Assembly: GCA_943787745.1 (NCBI GenBank)
Contig: CALSNJ010000002.1
Span: forward strand, 1,298,668-1,362,667
DNA length: 64,000 nt
Reading direction: 5' to 3'
Origin: an uncultured Alphaproteobacteria bacterium
GTDB taxonomy: Bacteria; Pseudomonadota; Alphaproteobacteria; UBA6615
The notes below the pieces were generated by a model that worked only from the letters and a program-made list of their open reading frames with translations, had not been told where the DNA came from and searched no databases. This document shows, one piece after another, positions 5,587 to 53,642 of the stretch. Numbering within the stretch: the first letter of the stretch is position 1; each line of letters opens with the position of its first letter. Position numbers and translations under genes: made by a program.

Positions 5587-6563
5587 GATACCCCGCATCT
5601 GAGAAACTTGAGATCATCCGCCTTGTCGAGCAGTCTCACCTGCCCATCAAGCAGACGCTGGACAAGCTAGGTATCCCCCGCACCACGTTTTATCGCTGGT
5701 ATGACCGCTATCAGCTTGGTGGTTCGGAGGCCCTGGAAGATCAATCGCCCAGGCCATCGCGGGTCTGGAACCGCATTCCTGATGACGTTCGCCGGCGGAT
5801 CATTGCCCTGGCCCTGGATGTGCCGGAACTGTCTCCTCGCGAACTGGCAGTACGCTTCACTGATACAGAAAGCTACTTTGTCTCAGAGGCTTCCGTCTAT
5901 CGCCTGCTTAAATCCCTTGATCTGATTACCAGCCGTGCATTCATCGTCATCAAGGCTGCTGATGAGTTCAAGGAAAAGACGACCGCGATCAATCAACTGT
6001 GGCAGACCGACTTCACCTATCTGAAGGTCATCGGCTGGGGCTGGATGTACTTATCGACGATCCTTGATGATTACTCTCGCTATATCATTGCCTGGAAGCT
6101 GTGCACGACCATGAAGACCAGCGATGTGACCGAGACGCTGAACCTCGCCTTGCAGGCATCGGACTGTGATCAGGCCCATGTTGTGCACAAGCCGAGACTG
6201 TTATCGGACAATGGCTCCAGCTACGTCTCTGGTGAGCTGGCGGAATGGCTGGATGAAAAGAAGATGAAGCACGTCAGGGGTGCACCGTATCATCCGCAAA
6301 CTCAGGGTAAGATCGAACGATGGCATCAGACGCTGAAGAACCGCATCCTGCTGGAAAACTACTTCTTCCCGGCAGATCTTGAGGCGCAGATCGAGGCGTT
6401 CGTCGATCATTACAACCATCAACGCTACCACGAGAGCATCAACAACCTTACCCCTGCAGACGTCTACTTCGGGCGGGGCCAAGCCATTTTACAACAACGG
6501 GAAAGGATCAAACGGAAAACGATGAAGGCCCGGCGCTTGCAATACCGCAAATACGCCGCCTAA
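5583..6563 (+). CDS. IS3-family transposase OrfB (integrase core)
   Basis: 326 residues: an HTH-like region (residues about 5-55) followed by the rve integrase core. The DDE residues are visible as D in [11 protein letters not shown] in [10 protein letters not shown] and E in [11 protein letters not shown], in the usual IS3 D-D-(35)-E spacing. The frame is full length with no stops, so the element may still be active. It is produced either by the frameshift in orfA or by reinitiation at the ATGA overlap. Confidence 0.92.
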
Positions 6564-50857: not shown

Positions 50858-51847
50858 ATGCCGCTTGCCCTTCGTCGCCTCGGAAACTCCCTTGGCGGCC
50901 CGATCCGATACCTCAAACGACGGCGGCCATTATGGTCCCGGCGCGATCCCGCGACAGATGGGGATTCGCGGACTCATAGCATTCAGGACGTGCGTGGAAC
51001 GGGTGACAGTGCAATCCCCGGAAACGGAAGCGCCGACACGCCGGCCCTGACCTGGAGCGACGACCGCATCGCGTTCTGCAGGCGGTTGTGGGGCGACGAC
51101 GCCGAAGACACATCCATTGAGCCGGGCGGCAGTGCCTACTATCGAGAACTGCTTCAGGCCGCGGCCATCAGTTCCTCCAAAGTCACGCTCGACCTGTCTG
51201 CCAGCCTTGGCGGCGGTCTGCGCCACATGGCAGACAAACTGAACTTGTGGATGACAGGAATGGAAGCCGACCCCGAGCTCGCCAAACGTGCCATGGCTCT
51301 CTCGGTGAAACAGAAGCTCGCCAAGAAAGCACCGGTTTCCAACTATGACCCCGCGAAACTTGACCTTCCGAAAAACAAGTATCACGCCGTGATTATGCGC
51401 GAGCGCCTTCACCGGGTCGCAAGCAAGGCAGATATGCTTAAAACGATCCAGGCATCCCTCAAAGCCGACGGCTACTTTGTGCTGACCGATTTCGCGCTGC
51501 CCAATGAATCCGCACGCACGGCCAAATCGGTGACCTCTTGGTTGGACCTGCAAAATGACCCGATCACCCTCTGGACGACCGAAGATTACAAACAGGCCCT
51601 CTCCGAACTCGATTTCAAACCCAGCATATTTCAGGACGAGAGTGCACAGTATCGTGCGTTGATACTGCGGGGCTGGGCGCGCCTGGTCGGCGGGCTCGAA
51701 CGCCCTGAGCTCTCCCGAGCCTTCGTGGACACCATGATGCGCGAAGCAACCTATTGGGTTCGTCTGGAACGCGCACTGGCGCGCGGTGAGTTGATTTATC
51801 TTCACACATTGTGTGTTGCCCGGAAGCCGAAACCAGAACCCGCCTGA
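50858..51847 (+). CDS. Class I methyltransferase-like protein
   Basis: 329 residues. A basic, low-complexity N-terminus (1-50) precedes a Rossmann methyltransferase domain (about 105-215). Motif I reads TLDLSASLGGGLRHMA instead of DxGxGxG, then MEADPELAKRAM and YHAVIMRERLHRVASKADML (motif IV/V region) and LKADGYFVLTDFAL. The weak motif I raises the possibility that it no longer binds SAM. The extra C-terminal helices (about 255-310) are unassigned. It is divergent from the acyl-CoA synthetase gene. Confidence 0.65.
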   Translation: MPLALRRLGNSLGGPIRYLKRRRPLWSRRDPATDGDSRTHSIQDVRGTGDSAIPGNGSADTPALTWSDDRIAFCRRLWGDDAEDTSIEPGGSAYYRELLQAAAISSSKVTLDLSASLGGGLRHMADKLNLWMTGMEADPELAKRAMALSVKQKLAKKAPVSNYDPAKLDLPKNKYHAVIMRERLHRVASKADMLKTIQASLKADGYFVLTDFALPNESARTAKSVTSWLDLQNDPITLWTTEDYKQALSELDFKPSIFQDESAQYRALILRGWARLVGGLERPELSRAFVDTMMREATYWVRLERALARGELIYLHTLCVARKPKPEPA

Positions 51848-51934: not shown

Positions 51935-52582
51935 TTAACCGATGGCCTTCACGTCTGCGAGTGTCTTCTCGGGCTCGGGGCGCGAGGTGTAGTTCGGGTC
52001 GATATCCGTGGCCCGAACGATGCCGTCACTGCTGACCACGATGCGCGCAGGCATCGGAAGGGTCCAGCTGTCGTCACCATTCGTCTCTTCCATGGGCAGC
52101 TTGAAGCCCTGGTAGATTTTCTTCACTTCGGCCGGAACCTCGAAACGCAGGCCAAGTTCGGCTGCATATTCGTTGCCCGGGTCACTCAACATATCGAACT
52201 CGATACCGTGCTTCTCGATCATACCCTGGCTGAAGGAAGCCAGTTGGGGTGTCAGCGCGACAACAATTGCGCCGGCGGCTTTAAATTGGTCGTTCGTTGC
52301 TTGCATAGCGTACAGCTCTGCATTGCAATAGGGTCACCAATGGCCGCGGAAAACTGTGAGAACCAGCGTCCCTTTGGCGAGCAGGTCAGCCGAACTGACG
52401 TCTTCACCGTTGGCATTCTTGAGAGTGAAAGACGGCAGCTTGTCGCCGACCTTGATGGTCCGGTCCATAATTCCGGATTCGCGAAGTTCGTTGGTGGCAC
52501 GCCCCATCGTGGCGCGCACCTCCTCCGGCATCCGCTTGGCACCCGCGGCGCTAATCTCCGCGAGTTGTTCCTGCAGGCTCAT
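51935..52582 (-). CDS. Peroxiredoxin-like protein, probable selenoprotein (in-frame TGA at the redox cysteine)
   Basis: One frame of 216 codons broken only by TGA at 52334-52336 (codon 83). The text on both sides joins as FRGHW-[TGA]-PYCNAELYAM. AhpC/TSA-type proteins of this family, about 215 residues long, have WCPYC here, so TGA replaces exactly the first, peroxidatic-type Cys. Before it: KVGDKLPSFTLKNANGED (about 45-62); after it: MLSDPGNEYAAELGLRFEVP and WTLPMPARIVV (about 172-182). Conservation after the TGA rules out a true stop. A weak hairpin follows the TGA. Expected role: thiol/selenol peroxide or disulfide reduction in the cytoplasm. A nonsense mutation is the alternative, but it would have to hit this one codon. 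Confidence 0.8.
52301..52328 (-). promoter_or_regulatory. Candidate bacterial SECIS hairpin after the in-frame TGA
   Basis: Starting 6 nt after the TGA, TTGCA pairs with TGCAA, then a 2x2 internal loop, then GC/GC, leaving a 10-nt loop AGAGCTGTAC. G residues fall 16 and 18 nt after the TGA, within the distance reported for bacterial SECIS loops. The stem is weak and lies in coding sequence, so this is suggestive only. Confidence 0.4.
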
Positions 52583-52718
52583 ATAGGCCTCCTGTTTTGG
52601 TTACGATAAAAAAGCACCTATAAGCTAAGCTTGATCCCGGTGAACGGCCACCATTGCGATGGCATTTTCCGGCACAAGTCCTTTAACCCAGTTGAAATTC
52701 AGTATCCGAGGAAAAGAC

Positions 52719-53642
52719 ATGAGCGACCCGATCCAGATTCGCATGGGCGGCTACGGACCCGAAACCACCACCCACAGCCGCGCCCTGAAGTTCATCGGCG
52801 ACAAGCTCGAAGCCCAGTTCGGCGACGGCGTCGACATCAAATACATCTGGAACATCATGGATTTCGGCTATCGCGCCGATGAAATCCTCTGGCTGACCGA
52901 ATGTGGCATCCTGACCATGTCCTATCAGTCGACGGCCTATCTGACCGACCGGGTGCCCGAACTCGGCTTTGTGGACCTGCCGTTCCTGTTTCCCAATCTG
53001 GATCATGCACGTGCCGCCTTTGATGGTGATCTCGGCCGCTATCTCGATACCTGCATTGAGCGCGAATACAACTACCGCATGCTCGGTTATTTCGAGAACG
53101 GCTTCCGCCATATCTCCAACAAGGAACGGGCGATCCACCTTCCAGAGGACCTCGACGGCCTGAAAATCCGGATGCTGCCCAGCGACACCCATGTCCGGAC
53201 CTTCGACTTGCTAGGTGCCGTGCCCCTGCGCATGGATCTGACCGAAGCCATCGAGGGCGTCATCGACGGTTCGCTGGATGCACAGGAAAACCCGCTCGCC
53301 AACACTGTCACCTATGGCGTGCACAAATATCATCACTTCCACACGCTCAGTGGTCATTTCTATCTCTCCCGCGGGGTCTATGGGCATCGTGAGAGCGTGG
53401 ATGGCTGGCCCGAAGAACTTCGCACCGCCATGCGGGCTGCCGTGCAGGAGGCGACCGCCTACCAGCGTGGACTGGCCGTTGCAGAAGAAGAAATCTCGCA
53501 GCAGGCACTGGTTGCGGAAAACTGTGAAATCACAGAACTTTCTGACGAAGAACGTTCGGCATTCCGGGCCGCTGTCGCTCCGATGTACGATGAAGCTCGG
53601 GCACAGTTCGGCAATACAATGTTCGACCTGCTGGAGGGGTAA
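52719..53642 (+). CDS. TRAP-type substrate-binding protein (DctP family) lacking a signal peptide
   Basis: 307 residues from the ATG at 52719 (GAGGAAAA upstream). DctP/TAXI-like fold: LDGLKIRMLPSDTHVRTFDLLGA in two blocks (about 145-167) with the ligand Arg, then EGVIDGSLDAQENPLANTV (about 181-199) and KYHHFHTLSGHFYLSRGV (about 205-222). These proteins normally work in the periplasm, but the N-terminus (MSDPIQIRMGGYGP) starts directly in the first strand and an in-frame TGA precedes any usable upstream start. No dctQ or dctM gene is adjacent. It is divergent from the peroxiredoxin-like gene. Confidence 0.85.
   Translation: MSDPIQIRMGGYGPETTTHSRALKFIGDKLEAQFGDGVDIKYIWNIMDFGYRADEILWLTECGILTMSYQSTAYLTDRVPELGFVDLPFLFPNLDHARAAFDGDLGRYLDTCIEREYNYRMLGYFENGFRHISNKERAIHLPEDLDGLKIRMLPSDTHVRTFDLLGAVPLRMDLTEAIEGVIDGSLDAQENPLANTVTYGVHKYHHFHTLSGHFYLSRGVYGHRESVDGWPEELRTAMRAAVQEATAYQRGLAVAEEEISQQALVAENCEITELSDEERSAFRAAVAPMYDEARAQFGNTMFDLLEG

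Follow-up and report, generated by a model that had tools for sequence, protein, structure and literature searches.

The window analysed here, a 64,000-nucleotide stretch of an uncultured alphaproteobacterial genome, carries a peroxiredoxin-like gene on its minus strand (51935-52582) with exactly one in-frame TGA, at codon 83 (52334-52336), in the context RGHW-U-PYCNAEL. With the TGA read as selenocysteine (Sec, U), the frame runs uninterrupted through 215 residues to a TAA stop, and re-reading the strand thus reproduced the single frame of 216 codons that a first-pass annotation had described. Two plus-strand genes flank the gene, one for a TRAP-type DctP protein (52659-53642) and one for a methyltransferase (50858-51847), and it stands by itself between them. 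The features of the gene are as follows:

51935-52582, minus strand: predicted selenoprotein gene, peroxiredoxin-like, 215 residues, Sec83, stop TAA (from PF00578, homologues, dN/dS and the structural model)
52334-52336, minus strand: putative Sec codon TGA, residue 83, opening the UxxC motif U83-P84-Y85-C86 (from TGA and Cys homologues)
52588-52593, minus strand: Shine-Dalgarno sequence AGGAGG, 5 nt upstream of the ATG (from sequence)
52297-52328, minus strand: whole predicted SECIS stem-loop, lower stem 52328-52325 with 52300-52297 (MFE -10.4 kcal/mol)
52302-52322, minus strand: upper hairpin of the predicted SECIS, stem 52322-52315 with 52309-52302, one G-A mismatch (from folding and the model constraints of PMC13188914)
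51875-51908, minus strand: intrinsic-terminator-like hairpin directly 3' of the stop codon, 15 pairs, TTTT at its end

Under translation table 11 the gene is split into fragments of 82 aa (52334-52582) and 123 aa (51935-52306), the two false proteins that the first-pass annotation had expected from a gene caller. Its assignment of both sides of the TGA to the peroxiredoxin family also held: the matches to PF00578 (AhpC-TSA; 88.5 bits, gathering cut-off 26) and PF08534 (Redoxin; 81.3 bits) each span the TGA.

Selenocysteine insertion would require the host to encode selA, selB, selC and selD, and all four were found in the window's genome (3.27 Mb, 97.87% complete). Scores for selA (582 bits), selB (458 bits), tRNA-Sec (71 bits, anticodon UCA) and selD (295 bits) are all above the curated cut-offs, and the four genes lie on one contig, spanning about 16 kb. 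The selD gene (L039:2495-5182, minus strand) shares its frame with an NADH-dehydrogenase-like domain that precedes it, and its SelD site is apparently Cys; Ndh-SelD fusions are already described in an earlier study (PMC2398784).

A class-wide search of 385 genomes, together with one scan of named GTDB genomes, provided 117 distinct homologues. The codon for residue 83 is TGA in 52 of them and TGC or TGT in 65; the 65 homologues that lack TGA have Cys there and never Trp. In the first search, of 60 relatives, 12 genes in 10 genomes had TGA at codon 83, the window's included, with 50-93% identity to the window gene in the other nine genomes, and SelB and tRNA-Sec scored above cut-off in all ten. 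The nearest relatives retain TGA; close relatives with TGC or TGT, combined with a TGA unsupported by reads in this strain, had been named beforehand as grounds against the selenoprotein reading. Sec carriers occur in Alphaproteobacteria (Rhodospirillales and Reyranella among those named), Gammaproteobacteria, Acidobacteriota, Thermodesulfobacteriota and one Bacillota bin. The selA gene is present in 46 of 50 Sec genomes versus 5 of 30 Cys genomes (Fisher p 6e-12, a value overstated because related genomes are not independent, although the contrast is still large); it was undetected in four of the 50 Sec genomes, whose completeness is not reported. Four unannotated plasmid matches (H1, H8, H9 and H16), considered as missed Sec genes, were ruled out by Cys codons in all of them.

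The sequence downstream of the TGA is still under selection, as had been claimed. Between the window gene and a relative of 93% identity, dN/dS is 0.099 on the 5' side of the TGA and 0.085 on the 3' side; against a relative of 83% identity the values are 0.18 before and 0.098 after it. Both halves are therefore under similar purifying selection, with dN/dS of about 0.1, and neutral evolution of the downstream codons is not seen. The values for the 3' half (0.085-0.10, within the genus) indicate that it is translated in frame and constrained, and the similarity of the two halves indicates that the gene is not a pseudogene.

The RNA 3' of the UGA folds into a stem-loop located 6-37 nt after the TGA, where the first-pass annotation had placed a candidate SECIS hairpin with G in its loop. 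The upper stem has seven pairs and one G-A mismatch, and the apical loop UGUAC (52314-52310, 5 nt) carries G at loop position 2, with 19 nt from UGA to loop. The published bacterial SECIS model (PMC13188914) specifies a loop of 3-9 nt with a G within its first two nucleotides, a stem of 4-16 bp, a UGA-to-loop distance of 16-37 nt and an MFE of -7.5 kcal/mol or lower. The window's stem-loop fits this model, with the MFE of -10.4 kcal/mol belonging to the whole stem-loop and only -6.4 kcal/mol to the upper hairpin alone. Against dinucleotide shuffles the whole stem-loop of the window gene has a z of -1.88; against synonymous shuffles the fold of this gene alone is not significant (p 0.085). Across the family, mean z against synonymous shuffles is -1.41 for Sec genes versus -0.31 for Cys genes, and a hairpin fitting the model is found in 47 of 52 Sec genes versus 17 of 65 Cys genes.

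Codon usage separates the two forms more sharply. Of the 52 Sec genes, 45 carry the core GAGCUGNNNGCU behind the TGA, and all 65 Cys genes lack it. The Glu codon is GAG in 52/52 Sec genes versus 32/54 Cys genes, the Leu codon CTG in 51/52 versus 18/59, and the Ala codon GCT in 45/49 versus 7/58, while elsewhere in Sec genes GCT makes up 10% of Ala codons. Synonymous codons that are frozen in Sec genes only are the strongest evidence for a SECIS, and on these sequence grounds the conserved hairpin after the TGA is a predicted bacterial SECIS. Compensatory covariation was dropped as the main proof in favour of codon freezing, which tests better; it is weak (two pairs, four cells changed on both sides, shuffle controls mildly exceeded) because coding constraint fixes most pairs. 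An Rfam scan of the region returned no SECIS match, only one chance match below its cut-off.

Several other readings of the interrupted frame were weighed. A Cys codon turned into TGA by mutation or misreading, in a dead or mis-called gene, would account for a TGA that is one base away from TGC/TGT and for the division of the gene under table 11. This explanation is exceedingly improbable: the TGA is common to 52 distinct homologues over several phyla, the frozen codons are specific to Sec genes, and the conserved TGA combined with selection on the downstream half refutes it. It is equally hard to maintain that two proteins are made, one an N-terminal fragment of 82 residues and the other started at an internal ATG (52306) and 123 residues long. 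Both frames are indeed open under table 11, but the split would lie within the active-site motif of one compact modelled domain (pLDDT 96.8), the frame stays joined in TGA relatives and the product is a single chain in Cys relatives, which leaves this reading, too, with almost no probability.

Selection on the 3' half would also be explained by a product with Trp or some other residue decoded at the UGA, through a changed code or near-cognate readthrough. This is very improbable, since the residue in homologues without TGA is Cys, and the TGA tracks both selA and the SECIS core. The frequent use of TGA as a stop in the window further speaks against a recoded genome: it closes 31 of the 65 open frames that reach 250 codons or more, a figure that is supporting only, as not all of these frames are genes. 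Taken with the computed conservation of the TGA, the machinery, the predicted SECIS and selection, the first-pass reading of a probable selenoprotein is very probably right, and the seemingly broken gene very probably encodes a real selenium-containing redox protein.

A full-length structural model was built with 61 family members. It shows one compact domain (pTM 0.92), and its best PDB fold matches are Bcp/PrxQ proteins (TM about 0.8-0.9 by target length); the modelled fold is of the PrxQ/Bcp thioredoxin type with an extra N-terminal helix pair. In the model, UPYC lies at the start of the active-site helix (84-95). Profile alignment with PrxQ pairs U83 with the Thr and C86 with the peroxidatic Cys, and alignment with ResA puts the U83/C86 pair on the CxxC (CPHC in ResA). 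The PxxxTxxC motif is absent, with Sec83 replacing its Thr and its Pro missing. The earlier label of peroxiredoxin-like is thus borne out for the fold and PF00578 membership but not for the canonical catalytic motif. The term names the fold rather than the catalysis because the protein lacks the Thr and Pro of PxxxTxxC and has a thioredoxin-like UxxC. As judged from the alignments and the model, the protein is not a catalytically canonical peroxiredoxin; it combines a thioredoxin/ResA-like UxxC active site with a PrxQ-like fold. Because its UxxC opens the active-site helix, the protein is assigned to the Trx/ResA-type thiol-disulfide oxidoreductases, an activity that is predicted for it.

Our strongly preferred reading, held with near certainty, is a single-domain selenoprotein in which SelB and the SECIS would insert Sec83 and translation would continue to residue 215, giving a UxxC redox centre that probably serves in cytosolic reductive defence. 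The putative SECIS, in the mRNA just 3' of the UGA, would recruit SelB carrying Sec-tRNA, and it is because the downstream hairpin recruits SelB that the Sec-tRNA would be brought to the in-frame UGA. In the resulting redox centre, Sec83-Pro-Tyr-Cys86, the Sec83 selenolate would most likely attack a disulfide or a peroxide/electrophile, Cys86 would resolve the intermediate as a selenylsulfide, and a cellular thiol system would then reduce it. The gene structure, the conserved TGA, the machinery, the SECIS, selection and the fold model come from computation, whereas selenium incorporation, substrate and reductant are inferred. The probable role in cytosolic reductive defence against a disulfide, peroxide or electrophile is suggested because plasmid-borne Cys homologues adjoin genes for glutathione S-transferase, alkene reductase and short-chain dehydrogenase, and several homologues have a TetR-like regulator as neighbour. 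Two annotated plasmid-borne copies adjoin glutathione S-transferase and short-chain dehydrogenase-type genes, one of them also an alkene reductase gene, and a third Cys copy sits between alkene reductase and dehydrogenase genes. A TetR-like gene, named by eye from sequence, is near 16 loci (12 Cys, 4 Sec). Most of this operon and TetR evidence derives from Cys homologues, which also account for the majority of the TetR neighbours; for the Sec clade, no conserved neighbourhood was found beyond near relatives.

Comparison with known systems places the window gene as an additional member of a class of Sec UxxC peroxiredoxin-like proteins known since 2005. A Sec peroxiredoxin-like protein was described in the Sargasso Sea set in 2005 (PMC1088965), the GOS survey lists Prx-like 1 (pfam00578, UxxC; PMC2398784), and a 2026 inventory lists a Prx-like thiol:disulfide oxidoreductase (PF00578, UxxC) and gives the name 'peroxiredoxin-like family protein' only with UxxS (PMC13188914). 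The UxxC proteins of the three sources have in common with the window protein PF00578, Sec as the first residue of UxxC, a SECIS directly after the UGA and the existence of Cys homologues; for GOS Prx-like 1 the comparison is by domain PF00578 and motif UxxC only. The Cys-containing RefSeq 'peroxiredoxin-like family protein' entries, such as WP_278333090.1 from Rhizobium tumorigenes, show full-length homology (about 38-47% identity) and the motif RGxWCPYC, but differ in having Cys at the site, and the Cys forms tested lack the SECIS core. The Sec-peroxiredoxins of the TxxU type (PxxxTxxU) share the Pfam family and overall fold, but their Sec is at the peroxidatic Cys, whereas the window protein has Sec at the Thr position and keeps Cys86 at the peroxidatic one. 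ResA-type proteins align their CxxC with U83-C86 in a similar WCPxC context; the alignment starts at residue 45, leaving the N-terminal helices of the window protein without a counterpart, and the score against NF002854 (ResA-type) is 43 bits versus a cut-off of 170. The SelL-related redox protein NF040769 has a Prx-like redox domain in common, aligned over residues 48-145, but at 28.7 bits versus a cut-off of 120 the window protein is not a member. The protein falls short of every NCBIfam cut-off, and a search of papers found no mention of WUPYC. In genomes the Sec form is readily overlooked, because the standard code gives two fragments and no NCBIfam model captures it.

The tree of the family places 46 of the 52 Sec rows in one group, together with a single Cys row, and the remaining six, mostly from Thermodesulfobacteriota, among Cys rows. 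A single clade of all Sec rows was rejected (AU p 0.003, only indicative because the test was made after the tree had been seen); paired-comparison tests found two supported independent pairs and had no power. The hairpins also differ between lineages. The large proteobacterial and acidobacterial clade has GAGC-UGNNN-GCUC, several Thermodesulfobacteriota have a shifted hairpin, GCUGC-loop-GCAGC, and the Bacillota bin has another hairpin further downstream. Sec homologues whose SECIS register differs from the window's are found at L114:3001-3663 and in L118, L126, L128 and L111 (Thermodesulfobacteriota and the Bacillota bin); the hairpin reads CGAGCUG-CGGUCAUUG-CAGCUCG in L114 and GCUGC-AGGCCAU-GCAGC in L126. 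The chances are about even that Cys and Sec changed more than once at this one site and that lineages built different SECIS elements on the same coding stretch. The outlying Sec genes may reflect repeated gain of Sec, or an old Sec form that was lost many times with the SECIS rebuilt. If the change was repeated, the family would offer a natural series in which to follow the gain or loss of Sec by a Cys enzyme. The family lends itself to clean comparison: among the members found, one codon is Sec in about half and Cys in about half, the frozen synonymous codons of the Sec members make their SECIS legible, and the SECIS comes in at least two layouts.

The window's genome holds at least three candidate Prx-like Sec genes. 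The second (L039:10056-10568, minus strand), in the selenium gene cluster, encodes 171 aa with a TGA in the context YRGHW-U-PYC and matches PF00578 at 78.6 bits; the third (L041:1466-2062, minus strand) encodes 198 aa, has WUPYC and starts with an N-terminus that resembles a signal peptide. These candidates, in a bacterium whose named relatives are Rhodospirillales and other Alphaproteobacteria, contrast with a 2006 survey in which formate dehydrogenase was the only selenoprotein of Alphaproteobacteria (PMC1794560). Two further genomes of the same family carry the gene twice, as tandem Sec copies in G009 (L042:4727-5368 and 5640-6281, plus strand) and as two copies on separate contigs in G012. 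Two Cys-type homologues, L017 and L153, have an in-frame TAG, at the family's Trp position in L017, which may represent a pseudogene, a sequencing error or recoding.
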